Part shown: piece after piece, positions 7,375-25,549 of the stretch
How the letters are laid out: the number at the start of each line of letters is the position of its first letter
How positions within the stretch are numbered: position 1 is the first letter of the stretch
Assembly (NCBI RefSeq): GCF_001942405.1
Contig: NZ_MKKA01000011.1
Coordinates: 62,001 to 126,000 of the forward strand
Direction: 5' to 3'
From: Ornithinimicrobium sp. CNJ-824
GTDB lineage: Bacteria > Actinomycetota > Actinomycetes > Actinomycetales > Dermatophilaceae
DNA: 64,000 bases
The notes under the pieces: generated by a model
Told to the model about the DNA's origin: nothing
Database searches by the model: none
What the model saw: only the letters and a program-made list of their open reading frames with translations
Translations under genes and position numbers: made by a program

Positions 7375-7375
7375 C

Positions 7376-8086: not shown

Positions 8087-8162
8087 GTGCGTCTCTCCCC
8101 GATCTTGCTGGTCTGGCGCGGTGCTTGCGCTGTCCCGCACCGAACCCGTGACGTTGCCTGCG

Positions 8163-9693: not shown

Positions 9694-9808
9694 ACCTCGG
9701 CCTCCTTCCATGCCAACCAAAGCGGCCAACCTGCGGTCTGGGTCTCACGCCCTGACAAGTTGGCACATTACCGCTAGTCCCTGACGACCAACCGCCATTT
9801 CCAGAAGC

Positions 9809-9817
9809 TGTGGATAA
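9809..9817. other. Single perfect DnaA-box sequence
   Basis: TGTGGATAA (complement TTATCCACA) sits in the 253-nt gap before the lipoprotein gene. No second box, AT-rich unwinding element or replication gene is nearby, so I do not call an origin. The rest of the gap (9694-9946) shows no gene. Confidence 0.3.
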
Positions 9818-9946
9818 CGTGCAGCAACTGACCGGCGACCCCCTCTAGACCTTGGGCGATCTCGAGCCTAGAGGCCGGACCCAGCCCCGCCGAGGGTTCT
9901 TACCAAACCTTTACCCGAGTCCGCCCGACCACGGCGCCTGCTCAGA

Positions 9947-10378: not shown

Positions 10379-10478
10379 ACGTGGGCGGGCGTACGGGACG
10401 TGATTGGTCTCGCTCAAGTCGCCCACACCTTGAATATAGATGCGTGCCCACCGGCACATGGCGGATCGGGACTGCTGT

Positions 10479-10488
10479 ACCTATAGGT
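10479..10488. promoter_or_regulatory. Palindrome ACCTATAGGT upstream of nuoA-like operon
   Basis: A perfect 10-bp palindrome in the 186-nt divergent gap between the XRE regulator and nuoA, 77 nt before the nuoA start. It is embedded in a short AT-richer patch (TGTACCTATAGGTGACA) that could also hold a -10 box. Candidate operator for the operon; the regulator is unknown. Confidence 0.35.
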
Positions 10489-10564
10489 GACATCTGGCTG
10501 ACTATGGCCCGGGTCGACAGATGCTCGACCCCGGGGCAGGATCTAGGGCGCCGAAGGGAGATCC

Positions 10565-10909
10565 ATGTACCTGGGTGTCGTGGTGATGGCCGTTGCCGCG
10601 GTCGTGCCCGTCCTTGCGCTGTATGCCCTCCACCGGAGAACGGCGGTGACGCCGGATCTCTTGGAGGTGCTTCCGTTCGAGTCAGGCTGGATCCCGGAGC
10701 AGCACGCGCTGTCCAGGTACCACGTGCGGTGGTACCTGACGACGCTAGTCTTCCTGGCCTTCGACGTCGAAATGCTCTTCATGTACCCCTGGGCCGTCGT
10801 CGTTGCCGAGATCGGGACCACGGCGGTCGTCGAGATGTTTCTGTTTCTGGCCGCGCTGTTCGTCGCCGTCCTGTGGGCATGGCGGGAAGGCGCGCTGCGA
10901 TGGGTCTGA
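10565..10909 (+). CDS. nuoA: NuoA-like subunit
   Basis: 114 residues with three membrane helices. The signature between helices 1 and 3 is clear: FESGWIPEQHALSRYHVRWY, then FLAFDVEMLFMYPWAVV with the conserved Asp and Glu of helix 2. AAGGGAG precedes the ATG. In complex I NuoA sits at the junction of the membrane arm and the quinone site. Here it heads an operon without a redox arm. Overlaps the next gene by 10 nt. Confidence 0.9.
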   Translation: MYLGVVVMAVAAVVPVLALYALHRRTAVTPDLLEVLPFESGWIPEQHALSRYHVRWYLTTLVFLAFDVEMLFMYPWAVVVAEIGTTAVVEMFLFLAALFVAVLWAWREGALRWV

Positions 10910-12519
10910 GCCACGCAAGCCTGGCTCTCGCTGCCCGGCACGCGCACGCCCTGGTGGTCGAGGTTCCAGGGTGGGCGCGCACGCGGATGCTCGTCGAGGG
11001 TGCGGTCGTCGGGCGCGGATGGCAGCTCGCGCCGTCCCCTGCAGATGCGGACGTCCTCATCGTGTGCGGCACGCCCGGACCACGGTTTTGCGAGGCCGTC
11101 GACCTCGTGTGGCAGCAGATGCCGGGGCCGCGGGTGCGCGTGCAGGCCCGGGGGCACAACGACGTCGTCGCCGTGCTCGACGACGCGCACGCCCTCCTCC
11201 TTGACCGCGTTCGCCACCGGCAGGATGCGGAGAACCGCCCAGGAGCAGACGACCTGCTCAGAGGCAGACGGCACGACGCGACGGCCGGGCACGACCGCGG
11301 TGGACACGACGACCACCCTGCGCAGGGTGACGCCGATGAAACGGTTCGTGGACAAGCTGAACACCGAGGCCATGCCGGTCACGAGGGTCCTGCACAGGAG
11401 ACGGAATCTCTTCCGACGGGAGGAGGGGCGGAGACGACCCGCCCCGAGACGGGAGAGCAGCAGCAACATTCCGAGGGGCACGGAGCTCGCCATGCCGGCG
11501 GCGTCGACACAGAGCAGCATGACTCTGACACCCGGGAACACCACCACAGGCACCAAGGCCACGACACCGGCGATGCCCCCCAGGACCGCCGCGGGCACGA
11601 GGCTCACGACGGGCACCACGACGACAACAGGCACCATGACCATGGTGGAGGCGGTGCGGACGGCGGACACGCCCACCCTGAGCAGCACGCCGGACACGGC
11701 GGACACGCCGACCATGAGCAGCACGCCGGACACGGCGGACACGCCGACCATGAGCAGCACGCCGGACACGGCGGACACGCCGACCATGAGCAGCACGCCG
11801 GGCACGGCGGACACGCCGACCATGAGCAGCACGCCGGGCACGGCGGCCACGCGGGCATGGACATGGCTCCGGGCGGGCTTCCCCTGGCCGAGGGTGGTGG
11901 GGACCGGGACGGTCTGGAGATGGACGTCCTGGAGGTCCGGCTGGGCCCGGTGCTCCCTCACTGGCCTGCGGGCCTGGTGCTGCACTGCTCGCTGCAGGGG
12001 GACCTCGTGACGCAGGCCCGTGCTGAGGTGTTCGGCGCCGGAGACCAGGGCGGGGACGAGGCCGACGCGCGGGCACGCGGGCTCGACAACCTCGTCTCCG
12101 TGCTCGCGCTGGCCGGATGGGACGATGCGGCGGCCCAGGCCAGACGGATCCGGGACGCGGCACTGGAGACTGGCGGCGGGCCTTCGGACCCGGGCGTCGG
12201 ACGGCTCCGCCGCCGGGTGCGTCGTTCGTGGGCGCTGCGCTGGTCGTTGCGGGGGCTGCGCCCGCTGACCGAGGAGGAGGTCCGCCACCACGGGCTGCCC
12301 GTGGACGTCGTGGGTGACACCTACGACCGCTTGCTTCGCATGGTGGACCGCGCGGCCGGCGGGGAACGGCGGCACGACGTCCGCCCAGCCGTCTGGACCG
12401 ACCACCTGGCGCAGCTGGTCGTCGGACTGGATCTGGCAGCAGCGCGTCTGGTCCTGGCCAGCCTCGACGTGCACGGGCTGCGGGCCGGCCAGGCCGAGCA
12501 CGAGGTGTCCCATGGTTGA
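10900..12519 (+). CDS. NuoB-like/His-rich/NuoD-like fusion protein (novel)
   Basis: 539 residues from ATG 10900 (GGAAGG 9 nt upstream, inside nuoA). Residues 1-105 resemble NuoB: ADADVLIVCGTPG followed by VDLVWQQMPGPRV matches the NuoB stretch before the N2 cluster ligand, but the paired and later Cys ligands are absent. Residues about 125-320 are extremely His/Gly/Asp-rich and end in 12-residue repeats EQHAGHGGHADH. Residues about 340-539 resemble a decayed NuoD: VLEVRLGPVLPHWPAGLVL, then LDNLVSVLALAGWDDAA. No FeS or quinone-site motif remains. It takes the place of nuoB-nuoC-nuoD between nuoA and nuoH. Likely a cytoplasmic cap that binds metal on a membrane-arm complex; function unknown. 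Confidence 0.7.
   Translation: MGLSHASLALAARHAHALVVEVPGWARTRMLVEGAVVGRGWQLAPSPADADVLIVCGTPGPRFCEAVDLVWQQMPGPRVRVQARGHNDVVAVLDDAHALLLDRVRHRQDAENRPGADDLLRGRRHDATAGHDRGGHDDHPAQGDADETVRGQAEHRGHAGHEGPAQETESLPTGGGAETTRPETGEQQQHSEGHGARHAGGVDTEQHDSDTREHHHRHQGHDTGDAPQDRRGHEAHDGHHDDNRHHDHGGGGADGGHAHPEQHAGHGGHADHEQHAGHGGHADHEQHAGHGGHADHEQHAGHGGHADHEQHAGHGGHAGMDMAPGGLPLAEGGGDRDGLEMDVLEVRLGPVLPHWPAGLVLHCSLQGDLVTQARAEVFGAGDQGGDEADARARGLDNLVSVLALAGWDDAAAQARRIRDAALETGGGPSDPGVGRLRRRVRRSWALRWSLRGLRPLTEEEVRHHGLPVDVVGDTYDRLLRMVDRAAGGERRHDVRPAVWTDHLAQLVVGLDLAAARLVLASLDVHGLRAGQAEHEVSHG
11680..11853 (+). repeat. 36-bp tandem repeats coding EQHAGHGGHADH
   Basis: Near-identical 36-bp units begin at 11680, 11716, 11752, 11788 and 11824 (last incomplete). 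Four of the 12 residues of each unit are His. The period keeps the reading frame and the near-identity shows recent expansion or homogenisation. Confidence 0.9.
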
Positions 12520-13492
12520 CCCGATCGCGATGCCGAACGTCGCAGGATCGGACTCGCCGGTCGTCACGGTGGCGCCCGGCTGGGCGTTCGCCGCGGTCAC
12601 CGTTCTCGGGGCCCTCGTCGTGGTCGCCGCGGTGCTCGACGGTGCCCTCTCCGCACGTTCCAGCGGCGGGCCGGGCGGTGCACCCGGCGGAGCTGCCCGG
12701 CCCTTCGGCGAGGCCGCCCGGCTGATGCGGCAACGGCGTCGCACCACGGTGCAGGCCGACAGCCTGCTCTGGCGCATCGGTGGTGCGGGGCTGCTCGTCA
12801 CGGCCGCGCTGATGGTGGCGGTCGTGCCGCTGGGCCGGTGGACGATCTTCGACCTGGACGTGGGCGTCATGTGGTTCAACGCCATGGACGTCATGGTCTG
12901 GGCCTTGGTGTGGTTGACCGGGTGGGGCGCCAACTCGGCGCACTCGCTGGTCGGGGGCTACCGGTTCCTGGCCCACGGACTCGGTTACGAGCTGCCCCTG
13001 ATGTTCGCTCTGGTCGCCCCGGCGATCGCCGCGGAGAGCCTGAACGTGGGCAGGGTCGCCGCGGCCCAGGACGGGCTGTGGTTCGTGGTGTGGATGCCGG
13101 TGGCCTTCCTGGTCTACCTGCTCGGGGTCGCGGCCTTCTCGGTGGGGGGGCCGTTCGCCCCGGCGCTGGGCAGCGACGTCGCCGGCGGCGTGCGGGCAGA
13201 GCTGTCCGGTGTGGACCGGCTGGTGTTCGAGACCGGCCGCTACGCCCTGCTGGCGGCCGGTGCGGCGTTCGCGGTCCCGATGTTCCTCGGCGGAGGTGCC
13301 GGTCCGCTGCTGCCGGACTGGGCCTGGGTGCTGGTCAAGACGGTGACCGTGCTCTCGCTGCTGGTCTGGTTGCGTCGGCGGTTGCCGGCCTTCCGGCCGG
13401 ACACGTTCATGGAGGTGGGGTGGCTGGTGCTGCTTCCGGCCGTGCTGGTGCAGGACCTGCTGGTGGCCGTCGTCGCCGTATGGAGGTCCTGA
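12512..13492 (+). CDS. nuoH: NuoH-like subunit, divergent quinone-site loop
   Basis: 326 residues, about eight membrane helices; starts at ATG 12512 inside the end of the fusion gene. Recognised by the order of helices and GYELPLMFALVAPAIAA with AESLNVGRVAAAQ, the NuoH pattern near the quinone channel. The usual acidic cytoplasmic loop (PEAE-type then EYSG) is replaced by GSDVAGGVRAELSGVDRL, so most conserved acidic residues of the E-channel entrance are missing. This fits a complex that no longer reduces quinone. Confidence 0.85.
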   Translation: MVDPIAMPNVAGSDSPVVTVAPGWAFAAVTVLGALVVVAAVLDGALSARSSGGPGGAPGGAARPFGEAARLMRQRRRTTVQADSLLWRIGGAGLLVTAALMVAVVPLGRWTIFDLDVGVMWFNAMDVMVWALVWLTGWGANSAHSLVGGYRFLAHGLGYELPLMFALVAPAIAAESLNVGRVAAAQDGLWFVVWMPVAFLVYLLGVAAFSVGGPFAPALGSDVAGGVRAELSGVDRLVFETGRYALLAAGAAFAVPMFLGGGAGPLLPDWAWVLVKTVTVLSLLVWLRRRLPAFRPDTFMEVGWLVLLPAVLVQDLLVAVVAVWRS

Positions 13493-13494
13493 CC

Positions 13495-14058
13495 GTGCTC
13501 GCAGACATCGCCTTCTGGGGCCTCGGGCTGGTCGCGGTCCTCAGCGGCGCCGCGGTCTTCTACGTCGACTCGATGGCCCGGGCCACGTACGCCCTGGCGC
13601 TGTCCTTCGTCGCGGTGGGCCTGCAGGTGCTGTTCCTGCAGCAGAACTACGTGGGCGTGGTGACGATCCTGATGATGGTCATGGAGATGGCGGTCATGGC
13701 CGTGTACATGGTCATGTTCATGGGGATGAACCCCGCCCTGATGCCGATGAGCATGGTGCACAGCAACAGGACCGCCGCCGCGGCGGCGGTCCTCACGTTC
13801 CTGGTGCTGGCGGCGGGCGTCCTGCTGGTGGACTGGCCCACCCGTCGGGGGAGCCCACCGCCGGACGTCACTGTGGCGCTCGGCGAGGCGCTGATGGGCC
13901 CGAAGATGCTCGTGATGGCCGTGATCAGCCCGGTCATGGTGGCCACCATCGTGGCCGGGGTCGTACTGGCGGCTCACCGCACCCGGTACGACCGGTTCGG
14001 CGACGACCTGAGGCGGCCCACCCCCGACGACCCCCAGCCCGGAGGTGTGGGCCGATGA
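13495..14058 (+). CDS. nuoJ: NuoJ-like subunit, Met-rich
   Basis: 187 residues from GTG 13495, chosen because GGAGG ends 8 nt upstream; an in-frame ATG at 13480 overlaps nuoH. Five predicted helices. The helix that in NuoJ carries the conserved pi-bulge is here packed with methionine: about 12 Met within 33 residues, including MVMEMAVMAVYMVMFMGMN and a following LMPMSM. Position between nuoH and nuoK fixes the assignment. The charged C-terminal tail overlaps nuoK as ATGA. Confidence 0.83.
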   Translation: MLADIAFWGLGLVAVLSGAAVFYVDSMARATYALALSFVAVGLQVLFLQQNYVGVVTILMMVMEMAVMAVYMVMFMGMNPALMPMSMVHSNRTAAAAAVLTFLVLAAGVLLVDWPTRRGSPPPDVTVALGEALMGPKMLVMAVISPVMVATIVAGVVLAAHRTRYDRFGDDLRRPTPDDPQPGGVGR

Positions 14059-14357
14059 CCCTGGAGGCGACCCTGCTCATCGCCGCGGCGATCTTCTCCG
14101 TCGGTCTGTACGGCGCGATCTCCCAGCAGGTCGTCGTCATGGTGATGATGGGCCTGGAGCTGATGATCAACGCGGTCATCCTGGCCGCCGCTGGGTTCTG
14201 GTGGTTCCTGGCTCCGGCCCCCACCGGGCAGGTCCTGCTCCTGGTGATCATCGCCGCGATGACCCTGGAGATGGCGATGGGCTTCGCGGTCGCCACCCTG
14301 CTGCACCGTGAACGGCAGGCCGACATGACCGACATGGCCACGGACCTGTCCCGATGA
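14055..14357 (+). CDS. nuoK: NuoK-like subunit
   Basis: 100 residues, three helices, normal NuoK length. The two membrane glutamates of the proton path are present: Glu35 in GLELMINAV and Glu72 in MTLEMAMGF. Overlaps nuoJ and nuoL by four bases each. Homologous to MrpC. Confidence 0.92.
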   Translation: MTLEATLLIAAAIFSVGLYGAISQQVVVMVMMGLELMINAVILAAAGFWWFLAPAPTGQVLLLVIIAAMTLEMAMGFAVATLLHRERQADMTDMATDLSR

Positions 14358-16291
14358 ACCAGACCACGGCCCAGGCCGCGCTGTGGCTGCTCGTGCTGCT
14401 GCCCGCGGTCGTCGGTGGCGCGCTGGCACTCTCGCGGCTCGAGCGTGCGGTGGTGCCCACATCCCTGGCCACGGCCGGCCTCACCGCCGCCCTGTCGGCG
14501 ATCGTCGCCGTGGCCCGACCGCAGGTGTCGGTGCCGTTCATGGCCGGCAGCGACCTGGCCCTGGGCGTGGACGCCCTGTCGGCCCTGGTCGTGCCGACCG
14601 TGGCGGTCGTCACCCTGCTGGTGCTGCTGTTCTCCGCCGGTGAGATCCGGCGGTCGCGGGCACGGTTCCACGGGCTCATGCTGCTCTTCGCCTCCAGCGC
14701 GCTCATGACCGCGACCGCGCAGACGCTGCCCGCTCTGCTGTTCGCCTGGGAGGTCATGGGTGCGACGTCGTTCGCGCTGATCGGGTTCTGGTGGCGCGAG
14801 CAGCACCGGGTCTCCGCCGGGATCACCGCGTTCGTGACCACCCGCGGAGCCGACGTCGGTCTCTACCTCGCGGCCGGGGCCGCCCTCGCCGGTGGCGGCG
14901 GGCTGGCGCTGGCCGACCTGTCGGGCAGCAGCGAGGGGTGGCGGCACGTGGTGGCGGCCGGTGTCCTGGTCGCGGCGCTGGGCAAGGCGGCCCAGCTGCC
15001 GTTCTCGTTCTGGCTGTCCCGGGCGATGGAGGGCCCGAGCCCGGTCAGTGCGCTGCTGCACTCGGCCGCGATGGTCGCCATGGGCGGCTACCTGCTGCTG
15101 CGGACCGAACCGTTGCTCACCTCCACCGGCTGGGCCGCGCCGGCCGCGGCCTGGATCGGCGCGCTGACCGCGTTGCTGCTCGGAGTCGTGGCCCTGGCCC
15201 AGCAGGATCTCAAGCAGCTGCTCGCCGCCTCCACCTCGGCCCAGCTGGGGTTTGTGGTGATGGGTGCCGGGCTGGCCTCGGTCGGCGCAGGCGCGGCACA
15301 CCTGGTGGCGCACGCCGCGACCAAGGCGCTGCTGTTCCTGGCCGCCGGGGCCTGGCTCACGGCGCTGGGCACCAAGCACCTGAGCGGCCTGCGCGGGGTC
15401 GCCCGGCGCTGGCCGCTGGTGGGCTGGGCCAGCACGCTCGGCGTGCTGTCGTTGGCCGGGGTCGCGCCCCTGGCCCTGTGGGCGACCAAGGACGCGGTCC
15501 TGGCCGCGGCTCTGGCGCAGTCGCCGTGGTTGTACGCGGTCGGCCTGGCCGCCGCCGCCCTGTCGGCGGCCTACGCCGGCAAGATCCTGGTCGCGGTGTG
15601 GCGGAGAGTCCCTGCCGCGGAGCGCGCCCTGGTCGAGGGGCACCTGGACGAGGAGGAGCCGGGCACCGGGCACGTCGGAGCGCTCGAACGCGCACCGATG
15701 GTCCTGCTCGCCCTGGGTGCGCTGGTGCTGGGCCTGCTCGCGCTGCCGCCGGTGGGCGACACGCTCTCCCGCGCTCTCGGGGAAGAACCTCTGCACCCCA
15801 CCCTGCTGGAGATGCTGGCCTCGGCGGGGATCGCGCTGGCCGTGCTCGCGCTCCTCTGGTGGCGACCTGCACCGCAGCCCCGGTGGGCGCGCGGCTGGCT
15901 CGGTCTGGAACCGGCGACGCGGACCGTCGTCGTCCTGCCGACCCTGGCGCTGGCCCAGGTGCTGGCCCGCTTCGACGACCGGGTCCTGGACCGGGTCGTG
16001 ACCGGGGCTGCCTCGGGCGCCCTGGGCCTGGCGCGCCGGGCGGCGAGGTTCGACGACCGGGTGCTCGACGGTGCGGTCGAGCTCAGTTCCGGGGCGACCG
16101 TGGAGGCGGCGCAGCGGGCCGGCCGGGCGGACGACCGCTGGTTCGACGGCGCCGCGGAGGAGCTCGCGGCAGGGGTGCGCCAGCTCGGTCGGATGGCACG
16201 TCGCCCGCAGAGCGGGCAGCTGCACCACTACTACGTCCAGGCCGTCGCGGTCCTCGCGGTCGGCGTCCTGCTCCTGCTCGCGGTGAGGTGA
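14354..16291 (+). CDS. nuoL: NuoL-like antiporter subunit
   Basis: 645 residues, many membrane helices. Pump residues are visible: Glu133 in FAWEVMG, Lys211 in ALGKAAQLPFSFWL, and MEGPSPVSALLHSAAMV with its His. The C-terminal part keeps an amphipathic segment with duplicated RFDDRVLD motifs before the last helix, as in the NuoL lateral helix. Overlaps nuoM (GTGA). The pumping machinery looks functional. Confidence 0.92.
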   Translation: MNQTTAQAALWLLVLLPAVVGGALALSRLERAVVPTSLATAGLTAALSAIVAVARPQVSVPFMAGSDLALGVDALSALVVPTVAVVTLLVLLFSAGEIRRSRARFHGLMLLFASSALMTATAQTLPALLFAWEVMGATSFALIGFWWREQHRVSAGITAFVTTRGADVGLYLAAGAALAGGGGLALADLSGSSEGWRHVVAAGVLVAALGKAAQLPFSFWLSRAMEGPSPVSALLHSAAMVAMGGYLLLRTEPLLTSTGWAAPAAAWIGALTALLLGVVALAQQDLKQLLAASTSAQLGFVVMGAGLASVGAGAAHLVAHAATKALLFLAAGAWLTALGTKHLSGLRGVARRWPLVGWASTLGVLSLAGVAPLALWATKDAVLAAALAQSPWLYAVGLAAAALSAAYAGKILVAVWRRVPAAERALVEGHLDEEEPGTGHVGALERAPMVLLALGALVLGLLALPPVGDTLSRALGEEPLHPTLLEMLASAGIALAVLALLWWRPAPQPRWARGWLGLEPATRTVVVLPTLALAQVLARFDDRVLDRVVTGAASGALGLARRAARFDDRVLDGAVELSSGATVEAAQRAGRADDRWFDGAAEELAAGVRQLGRMARRPQSGQLHHYYVQAVAVLAVGVLLLLAVR

Positions 16292-17784
16292 ACGTGCTCA
16301 GTCTGATCGTCTTCCTGCCCATGGCCGCCGCGCTGGCCCTGATGGCCCTGTCACGCCTGGGCGACGGTGCTGCACGGTGGGTCTGGGTGGTCGTCGCCGC
16401 CGGCGACCTGGCGCTCGTCGCTGCGCTGTGGCTGACCTACGAGCCACCGGTGGCGGGTCGGCTCGCGTTCGAGGAGCGGGCCGAGTGGATCCCCGGGGTG
16501 AACAGCAGCTACCACGTCGGGGTGGACGGGCTGTCCCTGCCTCTGGTGGCGATGACGGCGGTGATCTTCCTGGCCTGCGCGGTCTTCGCGCTCCGCAGCA
16601 GCGACCGGCCCCGGACCCAGGCGGCGCTGTTCCTGTTCCTGCAGAGCGTGAGCCTGGGGCTCTTCGTCGCCGCCGACCTGATCCTGTTCTTCCTCTTCTT
16701 CGACCTGTCCATCGTCGGCATGTACTTCGTGATCGCCGGTTGGGGCCACGGCGAGGCCGGCCGGTCGGCGATGAAGTTCTTCCTCTACACCTTCCTGGGC
16801 TCCCTGGCCCTGCTCGCCGGTTTCATCGGGCTCTACATCGCCGCCGACCCGCACACGTTCGACATGGTGGAGCTGGCCGAGCAGACCCCGCTGGAGGGGT
16901 CGTCGCTGGCCGGGGGGCTGGTCCTGGCCGCGATCCTGGTCGGGCTGGCCGTCAAGACGCCCACGGTGCCGTTCCACACCTGGCTGCCCCCGGCGCACAC
17001 CGACGCACCGGCCATCGGCTCGGCCGTCCTGGCCGGCGTCCTGCTGAAGATGGGCACCTACGGATTCGTGCGGATCGCGATGCCGATGCTGCCCGAGGCC
17101 TGGCGGGCCTCGGCCTGGGCGGTCGTCGTGGTCGGGATCGTGTCGGTCGTGTACGGCGCCCTGGTGGCGCTGGCCCAGACGGACTTCAAGCGTATGGTCG
17201 CCTACACCTCGGTCAACCACATGGGCTACGTCGTCCTGGCCGTCGGCGCCGCCGGGATCGTCGCCGACGACACCACGCAGGCGCGGTCCGTGGCGGTCAC
17301 CGGCGCCGTCACCCAGATGGTCAGCCACGGCCTGATCACCGCTGCCCTGTTCCTCCTCGCGGGGGTGATGTGGGACCGGGCCGGCACCTACGACATGGCC
17401 TCCTACGGAGGTCTGGCCGGTCCTGCCCCCAGGCTCGCGACCCTGTTCGCCGTCGGTGCGTTCGCCTCGCTCGGCCTGCCCGGCCTGTCGGGTTTCATCG
17501 CCGAGTTCCAGATCTTCACCGGCAGCATCGCCGCGGCACCGGTCACCGCGGTCGCGCTGGTGGGCATCCTCATCACCGCCGCGCTGTTCCTGCGGGCGCT
17601 GCAGCGCATCTTCACCGGTCCGACGAGGGGCGTCTCCGCCGGCTTCGGCGACCTGCGTCCCGCCGAGCTGTGGGCCATCGCTCCGCTGCTGGCACTCTCG
17701 CTGCTCATCGGTGTCCTCCCCCGCCCGCTGCTCGAGGTGATCGAGCCCGCGGCGCAGGTCCTCGTCCAGCTCGTCGGGAGGTAG
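16288..17784 (+). CDS. nuoM: NuoM-like antiporter subunit
   Basis: 498 residues from GTG 16288 overlapping the nuoL stop. Key motifs: AVKTPTVPFHTWLPPAHTDAP with the pump Lys, and LAQTDFKRMVAYTSVNHMGY. The helix-5 glutamate is an aspartate here (Asp139 in FFDLSIVGMYF), a conservative change seen in few NuoM proteins I recall. Six bases separate it from nuoN. Confidence 0.9.
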   Translation: MNVLSLIVFLPMAAALALMALSRLGDGAARWVWVVVAAGDLALVAALWLTYEPPVAGRLAFEERAEWIPGVNSSYHVGVDGLSLPLVAMTAVIFLACAVFALRSSDRPRTQAALFLFLQSVSLGLFVAADLILFFLFFDLSIVGMYFVIAGWGHGEAGRSAMKFFLYTFLGSLALLAGFIGLYIAADPHTFDMVELAEQTPLEGSSLAGGLVLAAILVGLAVKTPTVPFHTWLPPAHTDAPAIGSAVLAGVLLKMGTYGFVRIAMPMLPEAWRASAWAVVVVGIVSVVYGALVALAQTDFKRMVAYTSVNHMGYVVLAVGAAGIVADDTTQARSVAVTGAVTQMVSHGLITAALFLLAGVMWDRAGTYDMASYGGLAGPAPRLATLFAVGAFASLGLPGLSGFIAEFQIFTGSIAAAPVTAVALVGILITAALFLRALQRIFTGPTRGVSAGFGDLRPAELWAIAPLLALSLLIGVLPRPLLEVIEPAAQVLVQLVGR

Positions 17785-17790
17785 GCCGCG

Positions 17791-19204
17791 GTGGAGTCCA
17801 TGGCCATGCGGCCGGCCCTGCTCGCACCGGAGATCGTGCTGTTCCTCGGCGGGCTCGCGGTGCTGATGGGCGGGTCCTTCCTGCCGCGGACCCGACAGTG
17901 GCTCACCCGTGTCGTCGCCGCGGCCGTCCTGCTCGTGGCGGCCACCCTGGCCGCCCTCGACCTGCCCGGCCCGGCGCAGGTGGCGATGGAAGGCACCTTC
18001 ACGGTCGACACCACCACCGGGGTCGCCCGGATCGTCGCCGCGCTCGGCACCCTCGTCGTGCTGGCGCTGGCCTCCGACGAGATCGCCGGCACACCCCGGG
18101 AGAGCGAGACCTACGCGCTGCTGCTGTTCTCGACCACCGGCACCCTGATCCTGGCCGGGGCGGACGACCTGCTCGTCGTGACCGTCGGGTTCCTGCTGGC
18201 CAGCGTCCCCCTCTACGGCCTGATCGGGATCGCGCGCACGCCCCTGGGCGCCGAGGCGGCGATGAAGACCTACCTGCTGGGTGCCCTGTTCGGCATCCTC
18301 CTGCTGGCCGGGGTCACGCTGCTCTACGGTGTGTCAGCCACCACGCCTACGCCGAGCTGAGCGACCGGCTAGCTGACGCGCGGCAGGCGTGGTCGCCGCC
18401 GGCGTCGTGGCGGTGCTGGGTGGGTTGCTGTTCAAGGCCGGAGGCGCCCCAGGACACTTCTGGGTCCCCGACGCGGCGCAGGGTGCCGGCGGAGCGGTCG
18501 CGGCATTCCTCACCACCGTGCCCAAGATCGGCGCGGTGATCGCCGCCTACCGGCTCGTCGCGATGCTTCCCGACACCCTCGCCTGGCCGTTGCTGGTCGC
18601 GCTGCTGGCCGTGACCAGCATGACGCTGGGAAACCTCGCCGCCTACTGGCAGAGCGACCCCCGGCGACTGCTGGGCTGGTCCACCGTCAGCCAGGTGGGC
18701 TACCTGTTCGTGCCGGTCGCGGTCGCCGGACGCAGCGACCTCGCGCTGCCCTCGCTGCTGCTCTACCTGACCGGTTACACCGTCACCAACCTCTCCGCGT
18801 TCGCCGTCACCACCGCCCTCCCGCGACGGCGCGAGCTGCGCTCCTACCGGGGCATGGGCAGAGCCCATCCGTGGCTCGCCGCAGCCCTGGTCGTGGCGCT
18901 CCTCGGACTCGTCGGCACCCCACCCACCGTGGTCTTCGTCGGCAAGCTGACCACCACCGCCGCGGCCTGGGACGCCGGGTACGCCTGGCTGGCCGTCCTC
19001 GTCCTCGTCAACACCGTCGTCAGCCTCTTCTACTACCTGCGCTGGATCGCGCCCCTCTACACCCGCCCCGAGACACCGGAGCAGCACCAGGAGGACGCCG
19101 GCACACCCGGCCGTTGGTCACGCACCACCGCGATCGCGACCGCAGCCCTGAGTCTCCTCCTCGGCATCGGGTCCGGAGCCCTCTGGGCCTCCTTCTCCCC
19201 GTGA
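17791..19204 (+). CDS. nuoN: NuoN-like antiporter subunit, two one-base frameshifts
   Basis: Starts at GTG 17791 with GGGAGG 8 nt upstream. The first 185 residues read in one frame, then the frame breaks at about 18343 (CACGCCTACG, expected CACGGCCTACG) and again at about 18388 (CAGGCGTGG, expected CAGGCGGTGG). Restoring one G at each joins VSATTAYAELSDRLAD to AVVAAGVVAVLGGLLFKAGG and HFWVPDAAQG and gives a 471-residue NuoN with its pump Lys. Both losses are in G pairs, as for other shifts in the window. Last gene of the operon. Confidence 0.85.
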
Positions 19205-19426: not shown

Positions 19427-19837
19427 ATGACCCACCACGTGACCACGATGCTGAAGACCTACCCCAAGGACCTGGGGTCGATCGACCAGCAGAAGCTCGC
19501 CGAGTGCATCGAGGCGTGCTTCGAGTGCGCCCAGACCTGCACAGCCTGCGCCGACGCGTGCCTGGCCGAGGACATGGTGGCCGACCTGGTCACCTGCATC
19601 CGCAAGAACCTCGACTGCGCCGACGTCTGCGCCGCCACCGGCAACGTCCTGTCACGGCAGACCGGGAACAACCTCGAGACGACCCGGGCCGCGCTGGAGG
19701 CCTGCCGCACCGCCTGCCGGGCATGCGGCGAAGAGTGCGAGCAGCACGCCCAGATGCACGAGCACTGCCGGGTGTGCGCCGAGGCCTGCCGCCGCTGCGA
19801 GCAGGCGTGCGCCGACCTGCTCGCCAGCCTGGGCTGA
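19427..19837 (+). CDS. Cys-rich four-helix-bundle copper-binding protein (Csp/DUF326-like)
   Basis: 136 residues, four Cys-rich amphipathic helices: AECIEACFECAQTC, CADACLAEDM, TCIRKNLDCADVC, ACRTACRACGEECEQHAQMHEHC, then CAEACRRCEQAC (listed as separate segments). The CxxxC spacing places Cys on one helix face so that the bundle core can hold many Cu(I) ions, as in the Csp family. No signal peptide, so a cytosolic Csp3-type store. GGAAGGGAG lies before the ATG. Sits between the complex-I-like operon and the multicopper oxidase group. Confidence 0.85.
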   Translation: MTHHVTTMLKTYPKDLGSIDQQKLAECIEACFECAQTCTACADACLAEDMVADLVTCIRKNLDCADVCAATGNVLSRQTGNNLETTRAALEACRTACRACGEECEQHAQMHEHCRVCAEACRRCEQACADLLASLG

Positions 19838-19906: not shown

Positions 19907-20782
19907 TCAGGCGCGCGTTTCCTGGCCGTGGTCGGCCGCGTAGGCGGCGAACACCTCCTCGGGGTCGCCGCCGGTGTGCAGGAAGTTGTCGTCGAGCTCC
20001 GAGCTGAGCTGCTCGATCGCCAGTGACAGCTGACGCCCGCTGCGTCGCACGATCGTCTGCGACGAGGCCAGGGCCACGTCGCACAGCTGGAGCGCGTAGG
20101 GCAGCTGGCGTGCCAGCGCGAGGTCGGGCTCGCTCTCCTGGAAGTAGAAGCCCTCACTGTGCTGGGCGAAGTCGATGCGCACCTTGAGCACCTCGGCTGC
20201 GAGGGTGTCGAGCACCCGGGTCATCACCGCGGCGTCCTCGTCCTCCACGCTCTGCGCCCAGTCGCTGTCGGCCAGGCCCTTGAGCTCCAGGGCGAGGGAG
20301 CGACGACGGGACAGGGGCGGGTAGATCTGCGTGAACCACGTCAGGGCGGCGGTGAGCAGGGCGAACCCGGTGAGGGCCTGCAGGGGTGAAGCCGTCCGGA
20401 TCCACAGGTCGGTCGCCACCATGTCCCCGTAGCCCAGGGTGGACAGCGTGACCGCCGACAGGTACACGGCCTCCAGGACGTCCGGGTAGTCCGAGGGATC
20501 CACCCCGGAGGAGTACATGAACCCCTCGGGGACGTGCGGCAGATAGATCAGTGCCCACCCGAGCAGCTGCAGCAGCACCCACAGCAGGATGACCAGGACC
20601 ATCGCCAAGGGCCCCACGGTCGAGCCCAGGCGGTGCCCGGTCGCCCTGGAGATCCGCCACGCCCCGACCAGCACCAAGCGGCTCAGACGCCCCTGCCCGG
20701 TCGGGTGCAGCAGGGTGTGGAACATGTCGTGGAGACCGATCACGATCACCACGATCCCGGCGACGGTCGCCAGCACCTCCAT
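19907..20782 (-). CDS. Two-TM potassium channel family protein
   Basis: 291 residues from ATG 20782, preferred over ATG 20788 because GGAGG lies 9 nt upstream. N-terminal helix, a second at about 58-82, and the pore signature TLSTLGYGDMVAT followed by the inner helix; then a 150-residue soluble helical region with no RCK/TrkA-N motif. Ion_trans_2 type. Conducts K+ if functional; gating signal unknown. Confidence 0.82.
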   Translation of the reverse strand: MEVLATVAGIVVIVIGLHDMFHTLLHPTGQGRLSRLVLVGAWRISRATGHRLGSTVGPLAMVLVILLWVLLQLLGWALIYLPHVPEGFMYSSGVDPSDYPDVLEAVYLSAVTLSTLGYGDMVATDLWIRTASPLQALTGFALLTAALTWFTQIYPPLSRRRSLALELKGLADSDWAQSVEDEDAAVMTRVLDTLAAEVLKVRIDFAQHSEGFYFQESEPDLALARQLPYALQLCDVALASSQTIVRRSGRQLSLAIEQLSSELDDNFLHTGGDPEEVFAAYAADHGQETRA

Positions 20783-20873
20783 CACCATGCGCCTCCCCCG
20801 GTGGTAGGCCTCCCGGTCTGCCGTCGGCACCAGCGAAGGAAGGGCACCTGTCCTGTCCCACGGGAGCTGAACC

Positions 20874-21482
20874 TCACGGGTTCGCCTCGAATTCCGGTAC
20901 CGGGCGCTGCTCGGCCTCCTCGGTGGTGGTCACCGCGCCGTTCTGCTCGATGTCCTCCACGAGCCACTTCATCTCGGCGATCTCCTTGCGCTGGGCCTCG
21001 ATGATCTCGTCGGCCAGCTCGCGCACGCGGACGTCGTCGATGTCGGCGCGCTCGCTGGTGAGGATGGCGATCGAGTGGTGGGGGATCATCCCGTTCATGT
21101 ACGCCTGGTCCTCCACGAAGGTCTGGGACCGGGACAGCCACAGCGCGGTCAGGCCCAGGACGAGGGCACCGGCGATGATGGCGAGGTTGATCGTGACGTT
21201 CTTGTACATCATCCCCCACATGAAGCCGAGCATGATGATGGCCATCGCCGAGCCCATGAGCAGGGCCATGTAGACCCGCTCCTCGCTGAACGTCATGTGC
21301 GCCCAGGTCCAGGCGTTGGTGTAGGTCAGCAGGAACATCGTCACCGTCGAGGTGGTGATCATCGCGGCGAAGATCAGGTACATCTTCCGCTCGTGCTTCT
21401 TGTGCTGGTGCTGGTCCTGCTCGGACTGCTCGTGGGGGGAGGACTCGTGCTGGTCGTGCTGCTCGTGGGGGCTGGACATCAT
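20874..21482 (-). CDS. DUF305 membrane protein with His/Gln-rich N-terminus
   Basis: 202 residues from ATG 21482 (AAGGA 4-7 nt upstream of two consecutive ATGs). The first 35 residues are His/Gln/Glu-rich. Three membrane helices follow (about 36-120, rich in Met), then a ferritin-like DUF305 segment with MNGMIPHHSIAILTSERADI and IIEAQRKEIAEMKWL. DUF305 proteins recur with copper and other heavy-metal genes; the His/Met content supports metal handling at the membrane. Confidence 0.8.
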   Translation of the reverse strand: MMSSPHEQHDQHESSPHEQSEQDQHQHKKHERKMYLIFAAMITTSTVTMFLLTYTNAWTWAHMTFSEERVYMALLMGSAMAIIMLGFMWGMMYKNVTINLAIIAGALVLGLTALWLSRSQTFVEDQAYMNGMIPHHSIAILTSERADIDDVRVRELADEIIEAQRKEIAEMKWLVEDIEQNGAVTTTEEAEQRPVPEFEANP

Positions 21483-21547
21483 CGGTTCCTTCACGATCGG
21501 TCAGGGGTGGTGCGGTCAGGGGGGCACGGCGCGAGGGCAGGTCGGGC

Positions 21548-21903: not shown

Positions 21904-23649
21904 TCACCGGGCCTGGATCGTGCCCATCATGCCCAGGTCCTCGTGGTCCAGGATGTGGCAGTGGTAGACGGTCCGCCCACCGAAGTCGGCGAACCTGATG
22001 CGGACGGTGACCTCGCCGCCGGCGGGGACGTTGACCACGTCCAGCCACAACGGCTCCTCGGGGCGCCGTCCGTCCACGTCCATGACCTGCATCGGCCACA
22101 CGTGCAGGTGGAAGGGGTGGTCCAGCGGGCCCACGTTGCCGATGGTCCACTCCTCGACGGTGCCCAGCCGCACCTGCTGGTCGACCCGGTCGGGGTCGAA
22201 CGAGCGTCCGTCGATGGTGAAGTCCATCATCCCGCCCGGTCCGCGGCCCCCGCTCATCATGCCGCCGCCCATCATCCCACCCATGCCCATCTCCATGGTC
22301 AGCTCCCGGCGCCGGTCGACGTCGACGTCGCGCAGGTCGGCGAGCGGACCGTCCGGACCACCGGGGAGCCCGCCGGCGCCGCCCTCGCCGGACCCGCCGG
22401 CCCCCGACCCGCCGTCCCGGCCGACCTCGAGGTGGGCCAGGAGCTGCTCGGCGTCCTCGGGGCCGACCGCGCCGCCCATCATCTGGCCGCGGTCCACGGG
22501 TGCGGCGACCAGTTCGGCGTCGCCCTCGGTCAGGTCCACGAGCAGGTCCATCCGGTTGCCCGGGGCTAGCACGACCTCCTCCAGGCCCACAGGCGTCGTC
22601 AGCCGGCCCACGTCACGGCCCACGACCTGCCCGTCGGCACCCTCGCCCCGCAGGCGCAGCGAGACGAAGCGGGAGGAGCAGGCGTTGACCACCCGCCAGC
22701 GCTCCCGCTCGCCCGCCCGGCCGCGCAGCCGGGGCTCGAGCTGGCCGTCCACCAGGACCCGCTCGCCCTCGCGGCCCATCATCCGCTCCGGCATCGAAGG
22801 ACCCACGACGGATCCGTCCTGGGACAGGGTGATGTCGGAGACGACCAGGACCCGCTCCCGGTCCACGGCCGGCGGGTCGTCCTCCTCCACGACGATCGCG
22901 CCGTAGAGGCCGGCGAACAGCTGGTCGGCCACGCTCCCGTGGTGGTGCGGGTGGTACCAGTACACCCCCGCCGGGTGGTCCTCGGGCAGCTGGTACTCGT
23001 ACTGGTGGGCCTCCCCGGGCCCGACCTGCACGAAGATGTTGTCACCGTTCCCCTCGGGGGTGACGTGCAGCCCGTGCACGTGCAGGTTGGTGACATGGTC
23101 CAGCTGGTTGTCCAGCTCGATCCGCAGCAGGTCACCGGGCCGCAGCCGCAGCGTCGGGCCCGGCACCCCACCGTTGTAGCCCATCGTCCTGGCCGACCGA
23201 CCGGCCACCTCGTGCGTGCCGAACCTGGCCTGCAGCTGCACGTCCAACCGGCCGTCGCTGCTGGCCAGCACCTCCGGCTCCACCAGCTCGCCCCCGGGAT
23301 CCCCCGGCGCCCCCGGGGTCGTCAGCTCGCGCCACAGGCCGGTCCCGCCCACGACCGTGCTCACCACGCCCAGACCCCCCAGGGTCAGGGCGGTCCGCCG
23401 GCTGACCGACCTCACGACCCGTCCTCCCCCCCGGGCCAGCACGGCCCGACGCTCCTCGTACTCCTGCGTGCTCAGCTCTCCAGCGGCGTACCGCTCGTCC
23501 AGGACCTGCCTCGCCCGCGGCCCGCCGGAAGACGTTCGAAGGTCCGCGCCGCCGGAACCATCTGCCAGGCCACCAGCCAGCACGCGCACGGCCGTGTAGC
23601 CGAGCAGCGCGACCCCGACCACCAGCAGGACCGACCACAACCAGGTCAC
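21904..23649 (-). CDS. Multicopper oxidase with N-terminal TM-SHOCT extension
   Basis: 581 residues from GTG 23649. One helix (about 3-25), then SHOCT (RQVLDERYAAGELSTQEYEE, about 47-70), a twin-Arg segment SVSRRTALTLGGLG and the cupredoxin domains. Copper ligands are visible: HVHGLH, YWYHPHHHG, HPFHLHVWPM and YHCHILDHEDLGMM (HCH with axial Met). A Met-rich insert (GMGGMMGGGMMSGG) before the last domain is like that of CueO-type cuprous oxidases. Probably exported by Tat and oxidises Cu(I) outside the cell. The SHOCT plus twin-Arg order is unusual. Confidence 0.88.
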   Translation of the reverse strand: MTWLWSVLLVVGVALLGYTAVRVLAGGLADGSGGADLRTSSGGPRARQVLDERYAAGELSTQEYEERRAVLARGGGRVVRSVSRRTALTLGGLGVVSTVVGGTGLWRELTTPGAPGDPGGELVEPEVLASSDGRLDVQLQARFGTHEVAGRSARTMGYNGGVPGPTLRLRPGDLLRIELDNQLDHVTNLHVHGLHVTPEGNGDNIFVQVGPGEAHQYEYQLPEDHPAGVYWYHPHHHGSVADQLFAGLYGAIVVEEDDPPAVDRERVLVVSDITLSQDGSVVGPSMPERMMGREGERVLVDGQLEPRLRGRAGERERWRVVNACSSRFVSLRLRGEGADGQVVGRDVGRLTTPVGLEEVVLAPGNRMDLLVDLTEGDAELVAAPVDRGQMMGGAVGPEDAEQLLAHLEVGRDGGSGAGGSGEGGAGGLPGGPDGPLADLRDVDVDRRRELTMEMGMGGMMGGGMMSGGRGPGGMMDFTIDGRSFDPDRVDQQVRLGTVEEWTIGNVGPLDHPFHLHVWPMQVMDVDGRRPEEPLWLDVVNVPAGGEVTVRIRFADFGGRTVYHCHILDHEDLGMMGTIQAR

Positions 23650-24361: not shown

Positions 24362-25549
24362 TCAGGTTCGATGGAGATTCGATGGAGATCCCAGGGGCAG
24401 GGCCAGGCGGAGGGTCGCCCCCGTCCCCGGCCCGTCGCTGGCGGCGGACAACGTGCCCCCGTGGGCTTCCACGATGGCCCGGCTGATGGTCAGCCCGATG
24501 CCCGAGCCGGACCGGTCCCGGTCGCGCGCGCTGTCGCCACGGAAGAACCGCTCGAAGACGTGCGGCAGCTGGTGGGCGGGGATCCCCTCACCGTCGTCGA
24601 CGATCTCGACCACCGCCACCGCGCCGTCGCGGACGGCCCGCACCGTGACCTGGCCACCGGGCGCCGTGTGCCGCAGGGCGTTTCCGAGCACGTTGGTCAG
24701 CACCTGGCCCACCCGTACCGGGTCCACGTCGACCACCAGGTGCGGGCCTGCGGCCGGGTCCACGTCGACGAGCAGATCCACCTGCTTGCGGGCGTACGCC
24801 TCCCGCATCGTCTCGGCAGCCAGGCGCAGCAGGTCGGGCACAGCCACCGGTCGCCGGTCCAGGAGGAGACGTCCCTCCTCGGCCCTGGACACCTCGTCGA
24901 TGTCCTGGGCCAGCCGGGCCAGCCGGTCGGTCTGCTCGGCCAGCACGGCCCGGGTCTCCGGTCCCGGCGGCACCAGGCCGTCCGAGAGGCCCTCATGGTA
25001 TGCCGTCAGCGTGGCGATCGGGGTGCGCAGCTCGTGGGCCAGGTCGGACAGCAGTCGCCGCCGCGTGTCCTCGACCCCTTCCAGGCGGGCAGCCATCACG
25101 TTGAACGCCTCGGCCAGCGTGTCCAGCTCGGTGCCCGAACCGACGTCGGGCACCCGGGCGTCGTAGTGGCCCCGCTCCAGCTCCTGGGCGGCGTCCGTCA
25201 GGTCGGCCAGGGGCCGGCGCAGCAGCCGGGTCAGGAACCAGGTGACCCCACCCGCCGCCAGCAGAGAGATCAGCAGCCCCAGGCCCACCGCGAGCAGCGA
25301 GGCGTCCCGGTAGGCCAGCTCAACGTGCACCATCTCCGACGCCCCCTCCGGCAGGCCAGCCCGGAGCAGGTGCTCGTGGAAGATCGGCGGTCCGACGACC
25401 GCAGCGACCAGTCCTACGGTCAGGGCACCAGCCACGAGCACGACGGCCTGTCCCACCAGCAGACGGGTCGCCAGTCCGGCCCTCCGGAGGACCCACGTCT
25501 CTTCCCGAGGGGCCCGCCGCGTTCGTCGAGGGGGCAGGTCCGTGCTCAT
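24362..25549 (-). CDS. HAMP-type sensor histidine kinase of the copper island
   Basis: 395 residues: two helices (about 29-52 and 84-106) enclosing a short extracytoplasmic loop with PPIFHEHLL and EMVHVE, a HAMP domain, the H-box LLSDLAHELRTPI, and ATPase motifs NVLGNALRH, DDGEGIP and GSGIGLTI. The His/Met-containing loop could bind metal. Its start overlaps the regulator stop (ATGA). CusS/BaeS-like. The 3' end carries a tandem regulatory repeat for the next gene. Confidence 0.88.
   Translation of the reverse strand: MSTDLPPRRTRRAPREETWVLRRAGLATRLLVGQAVVLVAGALTVGLVAAVVGPPIFHEHLLRAGLPEGASEMVHVELAYRDASLLAVGLGLLISLLAAGGVTWFLTRLLRRPLADLTDAAQELERGHYDARVPDVGSGTELDTLAEAFNVMAARLEGVEDTRRRLLSDLAHELRTPIATLTAYHEGLSDGLVPPGPETRAVLAEQTDRLARLAQDIDEVSRAEEGRLLLDRRPVAVPDLLRLAAETMREAYARKQVDLLVDVDPAAGPHLVVDVDPVRVGQVLTNVLGNALRHTAPGGQVTVRAVRDGAVAVVEIVDDGEGIPAHQLPHVFERFFRGDSARDRDRSGSGIGLTISRAIVEAHGGTLSAASDGPGTGATLRLALPLGSPSNLHRT
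24364..24388 (-). promoter_or_regulatory. Tandem response-regulator box (box 1) before the DUF305 lipoprotein
   Basis: On the minus strand TCTCCATCGAA occurs twice in tandem (11-bp period) and ends in CCT, giving GAATCT-N5-GAACCT. It lies inside the last codons of the kinase gene, 15-39 nt before the lipoprotein starts. Matching boxes precede other genes of the island. Confidence 0.6.

Follow-up and report, generated by a model that had tools for sequence, protein, structure and literature searches.

We have found that the window, a 64,000-nucleotide stretch of DNA from Ornithinimicrobium sp. CNJ-824, contains an operon for a complex I relative that has a membrane arm and NuoB/NuoD-like domains, has lost redox and quinone residues, has fixed methionines and metal-binding linkers, and lies among copper genes. 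The family to which it belongs is a widespread separate lineage of complex I relatives, a placement that is well supported, and is apparently undescribed so far: no description was found among the papers listed in searches of the openly accessible literature, a scope outside which most subscription papers fall. We think it somewhat probable that its products form a redox-free, proton-coupled transporter or exporter of Cu(I) (or Ag(I)) built on the complex I membrane arm. The apparent loss of the electron-handling parts, the gain of likely copper-binding features and the copper genes nearby suggest that it could work as a copper pump driven by protons.

Composition of the operon and of its BD protein

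The operon comprises genes for NuoA, BD (a NuoB/NuoD-like fusion), NuoH, NuoJ, NuoK, NuoL, NuoM and NuoN, those from NuoA to NuoM having overlapping stops and starts:

10565..10909, plus strand: NuoA-like (PF00507, 5.5e-26; M70, M73 and H53 fixed in the family, adjoining E69)
10900..12519, plus strand: BD fusion, 539 aa (AlphaFold2 domains, Foldseek, NCBIfam, PDB profile)
11215..11905, limits approximate, plus strand: His-rich linker of BD, with repeats of the HEQHAGHGGHAD type (translation, linker statistics, low pLDDT)
12512..13492, plus strand: NuoH-like (PF00146, 9.8e-45; residue table; PDB alignment to E. coli NuoH)
13480..14058, plus strand: NuoJ-like (PF00499, 1.8e-9; match to a solved NuoJ profile, 4e-15)
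14055..14357, plus strand: NuoK-like (PF00420, 4.4e-11; E35 and E72 retained; M29, M31, M69 and M73 gained)
14354..16291, plus strand: NuoL-like antiporter subunit (PF00361, 1.6e-46; key residues retained)
16288..17784, plus strand: NuoM-like antiporter subunit (PF00361, 2.2e-65; TIGR01972 above cut-off; tree; TM5 Glu position is Asp139)
17791..18360, plus strand: NuoN-like, part 1 (PF00361, 1.8e-5; frame broken at its end)
18389..19204, plus strand: NuoN-like, part 2 (PF00361, 5.8e-37)

The initial annotation had described NuoA, H and J to N in this order with overlapping stops, and the reading frames bear it out, as does a Pfam scan with matches for A, H, J, K, L, M and both pieces of N; it overlooked that the NuoN of the window copy is split in two by small frame breaks. 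Both halves lie in a single open frame in 33 of the 34 N rows from relatives, the exception being L035. PDB matches were obtained for the window's M, J and H. NuoC, E, F, G and I, which the same annotation had called absent, are indeed missing from the frames of the operon. A palindrome, ACCTATAGGT, stands at 10479, upstream of nuoA; as a candidate shared element it was dropped, being absent from the upstream stretches of 14 relatives.

NuoB and NuoD had been thought reduced to parts of one protein, and BD is indeed laid out in the AlphaFold2 model as a NuoB-like domain (residues ~1-130), a disordered His-rich linker (~130-335) and a NuoD-like domain (~340-530). It matched no Pfam family at E values up to 1; a Foldseek structure search matched NuoD and NuoB chains and, among the matches listed, also chains of FHL, MBS and MBH, and profile comparison gave NuoB in the PDB (3.6e-5) and, under its cut-off, NCBIfam nuoB_fam (5.7e-4). 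No invariant or near-invariant cysteine was present across 38 aligned BD proteins (37 hand-picked from the 62 filtered ones, plus that of the window). The canonical NuoB of the same genome carries the cysteine motifs that BD is without, which we take to be the ligands of cluster N2.

At the level of sequence, recognised metal-binding domains and motifs are present in the family, in the form of MxH- or His-rich linkers and, in one branch, of a heavy-metal-binding domain (HMBD). MxH motifs number 246 in the linkers of 63 BD proteins, as opposed to 38 in shuffled versions, and at least three histidines are present in 57 of the 63, the other 6 having fewer; this set was drawn from 80 loci, 75 of which gave a frame, 62 proteins being left after length and redundancy filters and the window BD added. 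HMBD was found in all four scanned BD proteins of a branch picked because the motif had already been seen in two of its members, and was not found in the window BD or in four other BD proteins scanned. The NuoJ tail is His-rich in 10 of 38 members, such as those of Roseivivax, Acuticoccus and Halomonas. His-rich linker, J tail and HMBD were all scored absent in 7 of the 38, in part because the anchor was missed.

Residues kept, lost and gained in the membrane arm

The pump residues of L, M and K, claimed earlier to be kept, are all present in the window and conserved in an alignment of its relatives. In residue tables that omit L052, L053, L089, L092 and L101 (and, for H, L, M and N, also short rows and canonical matches of fewer than 150 columns), E133 of L is conserved in 35/36 rows and K211 in 36/36, the L table mistakenly including one or more N proteins (L090, and perhaps also L099), and the TM5 Glu position of M, Asp139 in the window, is Asp in 29 of 36 rows and Glu in the other 7. 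NuoK, in a table that keeps L053, has E35 in 36/36 rows and E72 in 35/36. NuoN has lost its TM5 Glu, replaced by Leu in 30 of 34 rows, and its TM7 Lys in 23 of 34, and coupling may therefore differ from that in Mrp. In L035 the N row is frame-broken and H reads over-long; neither this nor the misplaced L row affects the A, J and K counts.

In the quinone loop of NuoH (TM5-6), canonical E242, R245, D249, E252 and E254 are not the commonest residue in the 36 family rows, although at D249 Asp persists in 11 of them. An acid is retained at E256 and E264, and others are kept at E230 (36/36), D222 (Asp or Glu, 36/36), D83 (36/36) and E160 (25/36), so that the entry to the E-channel has been altered rather than erased.

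The E-channel of complex I is formed by A, J and K, and it is in these subunits that methionines are concentrated. Columns in which Met reaches a share of at least 90% among the family rows but not among the canonical ones number 2 in A, 11 in J, 4 in K and 3 in M, with none in H, L or N, that is, 17/387 in A, J and K against 3/1841 in the other subunits (Fisher p 6e-11). Sixteen of the 17 have Met in 36/36 family rows and in 0 or 1 canonical row, and the other, M73 of K, has it in 33 family rows; in the canonical complex I of these genomes the 17 are almost never found. NuoJ has a Met-rich TM3 and following loop, with an MxMxH motif formed by M90, M92 and H94. A TM3 tyrosine that is fixed in canonical NuoJ is Met in 36/36 family rows, and three residues past it stands a new invariant glutamate, E69 (family 36/36; Ala in 31/31 canonical rows). 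In a published account of Mrp, an essential glutamate of the cation path occupies the position of this tyrosine (PMC7419157). We note that Met-rich helices can also have structural reasons.

Distribution and copper neighbourhood

A profile of the distinctive NuoJ, which leaves a gap between E values of 1.7e-50 and 7.9e-23, was run on 396 Actinomycetota genomes sampled evenly; a count by hand gave 35 with the subunit, that of the window included, and it also occurs on 18 plasmids, four of them in Pseudomonadota. Counts based on BD (25/97 and 32/396 genomes) take in linker-only matches (G023, G069 and G434, whose locus L101 has no operon), and the J profile count is cleaner. Full A-to-N order was seen in 35 of 40 loci fetched, 4 more being cut by contig ends, a proportion that is no prevalence since the loci were picked for a BD match; L089 has A only, on a 3.9 kb contig, and at L095 a BD match is absent at 1e-3.

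Canonical NuoB is also present in 34 of the 36 operon-bearing genomes searched, which indicates that these genomes have complex I as a system of its own. The initial annotation had proposed looking for a full nuo operon elsewhere in the genome of the window, and a separate canonical one is found on contig C1, together with a second nuo-like locus, without EFG and frame-broken, on contig C4. Supply of the missing subunits in trans was considered and provisionally rejected, as a full complement of A, B, D, F, H and J to N was seen within the operon on C1 itself. Of 13 plasmid regions, 12 have no NuoI, E, F or G annotated beside the operon, and annotation of the remaining one is too patchy to tell.

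The genomic link of the family with copper genes is well supported. In the window, the operon is followed by:

19427..19837, plus strand: DUF326 Cys-rich protein (PF03860, 2.5e-10; recurs near operon copies)
19907..20830, minus strand: potassium-channel-like protein (name taken from similar annotated genes beside other copies)
20874..21494, minus strand: DUF305 protein (PF03713, 8.7e-10; recurs near copies)
21904..23649, minus strand: multicopper oxidase (Cu-oxidase_2, 1.5e-24; Cu-oxidase_3, 1.9e-24)
24362..25549, minus strand: sensor histidine kinase, adjoining the multicopper oxidase (HATPase_c, HisKA, HAMP)

The DUF326 family has a link to copper storage. Near its start the multicopper oxidase has a SHOCT-like segment, below cut-off. 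When neighbourhoods were compared, as had also been proposed, using a panel of copper genes built from those noticed earlier next to the operon on plasmids, such genes were found to flank 51 of 69 non-redundant loci against 0 of 20 control regions, taken from 20 genomes of another set than the 80 named loci (Fisher p 8e-10). Among the genomes most similar to the controls, with CueR counted, the figures are 28/37 loci and 2/20 controls. The flanks are without a copper marker at 18 of the 69 loci (16 if CueR counts), and none is in view in 3 of 13 annotated plasmid regions. On a Curtobacterium plasmid nuoA is preceded, at a distance of 81 bp and in the same orientation, by a heavy-metal P-type ATPase gene, and Roseivivax and Acuticoccus plasmids have cueR, a heavy-metal ATPase and a multicopper oxidase near the operon.

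Relation to known systems and possible function

The family shares with complex I its homologues of A, H and J to N in nuo order, the NuoB/NuoD-like folds and the Lys/Glu axis in L and M, but is without C, E, F, G and I, without conserved cluster cysteines in BD, without most quinone-loop residues of NuoH and without the TM5 Glu of N, and has a Met-lined A/J/K, a metal-binding linker and a copper neighbourhood. With Mrp it shares the lack of any redox sign, the NuoL/M-like subunits and a cation path expected at J/K-like subunits; it differs in having NuoA, NuoH and B/D-like domains, in lacking MrpE, F and G, and in bearing soft-metal rather than alkali-ion residues. Mrp has seven subunits, MrpABCDEFG, without NuoH (PMC7419157). 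In a NuoM tree, another of the comparisons proposed earlier, the 22 family rows group together as a clade (100/98) and are united with canonical and EFG-less NuoM (41 rows, 100/100), with two MrpD rows falling outside. Subunit set and tree together rule out membership of Mrp. Of the earlier suggestion of an Mrp-like antiporter, a working mode is what survives, given that NuoA, NuoH and BD are present and that NuoM does not group with MrpD.

Energy-converting hydrogenases (Mbh, Mbs and formate hydrogenlyase, with Ehr as a further relative) likewise have a NuoB/D-like core adjoining a NuoH-like subunit, but BD is without conserved cysteines for [NiFe] or Fe-S, and the family has NuoA and a complex I-type layout. 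The CO2-hydrating relatives NDH-1MS and DAB provide a precedent, since in them a NuoL-type engine powers work other than redox chemistry at a protein attached to it; no carbonic-anhydrase-like subunit was seen in the family, which has a metal-binding linker instead. The Cu(I) exporters P1B-ATPases and CusCBA have HMBD or Met/His motifs, as the family does, and P1B-type ATPases occur in the same islands, but these exporters are unrelated families and the ATPases use another energy source.

The lack of conserved cysteines in BD, the loss of most quinone-loop residues from NuoH and the axis retained in L and M agree with the earlier proposal that ions are translocated without NADH or quinone chemistry. 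As for another donor from the adjacent copper/redox island, the metal donor comes close, in view of the neighbourhood and the metal-binding features, whereas an electron donor is unsupported because cofactor-binding residues were not found. Tentatively, the family may constitute a class of heavy-metal transporter that is new, exchanging Cu(I)/Ag(I) for protons and composed of the complete complex I membrane arm and a cofactor-free NuoB/NuoD shell, with a Met-lined path through the E-channel. The subunits would be assembled as one complex, in which the former quinone/E-channel region has been turned into a soft-metal site and the fixed methionines lie in one path. BD, cytosolic and cofactor-free, could gather Cu(I) (or Ag(I)) through its His/MxH-rich or HMBD linker and pass the ion to the old quinone cavity (H53 of A; M83, M90, M92 and H94 of J), from which it would travel the E-channel along M70/M73 of A, M65-M81 of J and M29/M31/M69/M73 of K, with E69 of J and E35/E72 of K taking part in its passage. 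The cation might then be exchanged for protons via the Lys/Glu axis of L and M, with N weakened, in an Mrp-like manner, such that copper export is powered by the proton motive force; the role would be copper resistance.

It is also conceivable, though unlikely, that the complex is a metal-gated antiporter, in which copper at the BD linker or E-channel triggers Na+/K+/H+ exchange without itself crossing, maintaining membrane potential and pH during copper stress. The proton axis retained in L and M and the analogy with Mrp would agree with this, as would a potassium-channel-like gene that recurs near 17/117 loci (tblastn) and is annotated beside other copies; the fixed methionines, however, are spread over three membrane subunits and not confined to a sensor domain, and counterparts of MrpE, F and G are missing from the operon. 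We regard it as distinctly unlikely that a copper-binding complex serves uptake, or membrane routing to cuproenzymes such as multicopper oxidase, rather than export: its neighbours do include multicopper oxidases along with further copper proteins, and the His/Met-rich parts could be chaperone-like, but the heavy-metal ATPases and CsoR/CueR regulators nearby suggest resistance and not supply, and three antiporter subunits would be costly for a chaperone. A redox complex, whose proton pumping would be driven by an unrecognised electron carrier docked at BD (possibly a cupredoxin, or copper itself as Cu(I)/Cu(II)), seems improbable. Genes for a cupredoxin, cytochrome c and multicopper oxidase do lie near some operon copies, and a Halomonas plasmid encodes the alpha subunit of a formate dehydrogenase, as well as a nitrate reductase, within 20 kb downstream, yet the 38 aligned BD proteins share no conserved cysteine, most quinone-loop residues of NuoH are lost, and NuoI, E, F and G partners are not annotated in 12 of the 13 plasmid regions. 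A decaying, functionless copy of complex I is scarcely credible and was rejected for the family, since, despite the broken N of the window and of L035 and the frame-broken locus on C4, order and key residues are retained across Actinomycetota, the operon is carried on Pseudomonadota plasmids, and the spread of its J and the open N frames of relatives speak against it.

The copper transporter that we favour would, if the copper reading is true, give Actinomycetota (including Mycobacterium plasmids) and some Pseudomonadota a proton-driven, multi-subunit route for copper. Genome-based counts of complex I may meanwhile be misled, because plasmid annotations name the operon genes NADH-quinone oxidoreductase subunits (BD being mostly a hypothetical protein), yet no means of oxidising NADH, or of binding quinone in the manner of complex I, was seen. 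If the exchanger reading holds, the family would be, to our knowledge, the first complex I relative to move a transition metal; it would also represent a naturally occurring form of the complex I coupling machinery that is free of redox. Being triggered by a metal ion instead of a quinone, it would in addition offer a natural test of the debated E-channel coupling between an event near the quinone site and the distant proton pumps.

Operon layout and distribution

The window (G000:C11:62001-126000) carries a compact plus-strand operon, here read from its frames, in which a protein resembling both NuoB and NuoD (BD) is encoded between NuoA and NuoH:

10565-10909, +, NuoA, Pfam complex I family
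10900-12519, +, BD, 539 residues, no Pfam family at E up to 1
12512-13492, +, NuoH, Pfam complex I family
13480-14058, +, NuoJ, Pfam complex I family
14055-14357, +, NuoK, Pfam complex I family
14354-16291, +, NuoL, Pfam complex I family
16288-17784, +, NuoM, Pfam complex I family
17791-18360 and 18389-19204, +, NuoN in two pieces, Pfam complex I family

NuoN (17791-19204) is interrupted by small, closely spaced frame breaks and was read as it stands, with no base restored. A single open frame is found in 33 of 34 rows of relatives, the exception being L035, a locus of another genome of the genus that has its own NuoN break and a broken NuoH. Assembly errors could reasonably account for the window's breaks in place of decay, since the genome has another nuo-like locus (L010, G000:C4:55000-74500, approximately 7368-17786, minus strand) with frame breaks, in L, M and N. 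That locus has A, B, C, H, I and J-N frames; E, F and G were not seen in it, and a CoA-transferase-like frame, named by eye, lies between C and H, the usual slot of NuoD. NuoB was found in all six relatives' loci of this EFG-less type, one of which has B, C, H, I, J and K consecutively by Pfam (L250:3790-8270). A tblastn search with canonical NuoD at E up to 1e-4 matched L251 alone, with no match in L249, L250, L252, L253 or L254, and the EFG-less operon of these relatives may lack NuoD.

The full order A to N of the window's operon family was found in 35 of 40 loci fetched on a BD match; contig ends interrupt it at L053, L089 (reduced to A), L092 and L102, and nothing of the operon was found at L101, also fetched on a BD match. 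A NuoJ profile matched 35 of 396 Actinomycetota genomes, the window's included, with E no higher than 1.7e-50; the match after these has 7.9e-23. Scanning species representatives with NuoJ gave at least 493 relatives, of which the best 80 are all titled actinobacterial and include Ornithinimicrobium, Serinicoccus, Nocardioides, Mycobacterium, Micromonospora, Salinispora, Kocuria and Rhodococcus. Family NuoJ is also present on 18 plasmid records, four of them from Pseudomonadota (two Roseivivax, Acuticoccus and Halomonas). Canonical NuoB was found in 34 of the 36 operon-bearing genomes searched. When seven proteins (all but N) were scanned with NCBIfam, the one curated cut-off passed was for a broad NuoM subfamily, by M. 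We found no description of the family in the literature searched; a census of complex I subunits from 2025 records both complete clusters and partial ones, and the word "copper" does not appear in its main text (PMC12361115).

The BD protein and the pump residues

AlphaFold2, run with 38 aligned sequences, predicts confident BD domains at approximately 1-130 and 340-530 around a disordered middle (mean pLDDT 72). Foldseek returned 687 hits at E up to 10, of which the best 50 all come from complex I or closely related complexes and only two are under 0.001; among the 50 hits listed, the alignments span about 380 columns for NuoD chains (best E 3.4e-4, query TM 0.26) and some 140 columns for NuoB chains (best E 1.9e-3). 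A BD profile matched NuoB at 3.6e-5 and NuoD only at 0.25. In a distant branch, all four proteins scanned with Pfam, picked because two had already shown the motif, have in order a weak NuoB match (1.5e-4 to 0.06, below the cut-off), an HMBD heavy-metal-binding domain (1.5e-12 to 1.4e-14) and NuoD (1e-12 to 3e-16). The scan did not find HMBD in BD of the window, Roseivivax, Halomonas, Acuticoccus or Curtobacterium; in the window a long His-rich repeat occupies its place. In the window's BD and 62 filtered relatives, the linker has three or more His in 57 of 63 (fewer in six) and at least one M-x-H motif (x = D, N, G, E, Q, S or H) in 43, with 246 such motifs observed against 38 in shuffles. 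In one BD branch (L084, L086, L087, L088, L093, L098, Roseivivax, Halomonas and Acuticoccus), the His-rich linker ahead of the NuoD-like domain is replaced by a conserved Gly/Met motif such as GQGGEGMMGGTPYGRPMAM.

Numbered by the complex I row of the window's own genome, canonical NuoH E242, R245, D249, E252 and E254 are mostly F, W, A, L and a gap in 36 family rows (D249 is still Asp in 11), and R57, R66 and R71 are lost too in most rows. Charges are retained at D99, R177 and E264 and an acid at E256 (each 36/36), and E186 in 25. The initial annotation held that the pump residues are kept, which stands for L (E133, K211, K287, K324 and K379) and M (K223, K254 and E406), each in 34 to 36 of 36 rows, and for K (E35 and E72); the TM5 acid of M is Asp instead of Glu in 29 of 36. 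NuoN departs from the pattern, its TM5 position being Leu in 30 of 34 rows (Glu in complex I) and its TM7 Lys retained in 23, with Glu in 10.

Fixed methionines and copper neighbours

We compared 34-36 family rows with 31-34 canonical rows from the same genomes, counting the columns where the share of Met is 90% or more in the family and lower than 90% in the canonical rows. Two such columns lie in A (M70, M73), 11 in J (M32, M65, M66, M70, M73, M77, M81, M83, M90, M92, M143), four in K (M29, M31, M69, M73) and three in M; H, L and N have none. Pooled, A, J and K account for 17 of 387 columns and the remaining subunits for 3 of 1841 (Fisher p 6e-11). Sixteen of the 17 are invariant among the 36 family rows and the other, K M73, is present in 33; at any one of them no more than one canonical row has Met. 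Mets fixed in canonical rows only number 0 in A, 0 in J and one in K. A H53 and J H94 are likewise fixed (36/36), and the loop between TM3 and TM4 of J, which contains M90, M92 and H94, presumably faces the cytoplasm. J M66 stands where canonical rows hold a fixed Tyr (31/31), which we take to be the pi-bulge Tyr, and J has a new fixed Glu, E69 (36/36, versus Ala in 31/31). In complex I, the E-channel is made up of A, J, K and a portion of H (PMC10212512); at the position of this Tyr, Mrp has an essential Glu (PMC7419157).

Four or more His follow NuoJ residue 160 in 10 of 38 members, and a His-rich linker, such a His-rich tail or HMBD occurs in 31 of 38. The tails encoded on the Roseivivax (L186:18004-18906) and Acuticoccus (L189:15995-16705) plasmids are very long and have the most His of all, 32 and 16 beyond that residue.

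Past the operon, the window has genes for a DUF326 protein, a K+-channel-like protein, a DUF305 protein, a multicopper oxidase and a histidine kinase. The K+-channel-like gene (window 19907-20830; also L189 and L192) adjoins the operon repeatedly in distant hosts. With a copper marker panel picked after annotated plasmid regions had been viewed, at least one marker was found in 84 of 117 loci (mean flank about 10.5 kb) versus 2 of 20 control regions, both CueR-type, and in 28 of 37 loci from genomes that also supplied controls. Clustering gave 81 groups, 69 with sufficient flank; excluding CueR, 51 of the 69 have a marker versus 0 of 20 controls (Fisher p 8e-10) and 42 have two or more kinds (0 of 20), the counts with CueR being 53 and 43. 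Of the 18 plasmid records, 13 gave annotated regions, and copper or heavy-metal genes are present in ten of these. Among the ten, Curtobacterium has a heavy-metal ATPase gene 81 bp upstream of nuoA; Roseivivax and Acuticoccus have cueR, a heavy-metal ATPase and a multicopper oxidase; Halomonas has copC, copD, copB and a copper-resistance oxidase; Mycobacterium paragordonae has two copper ATPases and csoR; and Ornithinimicrobium, the weakest case, has only DUF305 and metal-responsive-type regulators. None was seen in the annotated regions viewed on Rhodococcus, Gordonia and Pseudarthrobacter plasmids.

A candidate metal transporter

Tests against complex I, Mrp and the energy-converting hydrogenases each showed defining features that the family lacks. 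In a NuoM tree of 70 rows, its 22 members form one clade (support 100/98) that groups with canonical and EFG-less NuoM (41 rows, 100/100), with two MrpD rows standing apart; canonical and EFG-less NuoM are themselves united at only 91/68. The earlier suggestion of an Mrp-like antiporter fits a predicted way of working, which would most resemble Mrp with a complex I body, and fails as a classification.

Of the readings considered, a Cu(I) or Ag(I) transporter that runs the complex I engine without redox chemistry has the best support. Export fits as its direction, since heavy-metal ATPases, CsoR and CueR are neighbours; a rival is copper uptake or routing. The family might also be a copper-gated alkali-ion antiporter. 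Last, a redox complex with an unrecognized partner would suit the formate dehydrogenase subunit encoded within 20 kb of the operon on the Halomonas plasmid; against it, no invariant or nearly invariant Cys occurs across 38 aligned BD proteins. For the Cu(I) or Ag(I) transporter we infer how the parts assemble, how the path runs, which ion moves and in which direction: BD would gather the metal, which would enter at the former quinone-binding place, travel through the Met-lined E-channel of A, J and K and be exchanged for protons via L and M.
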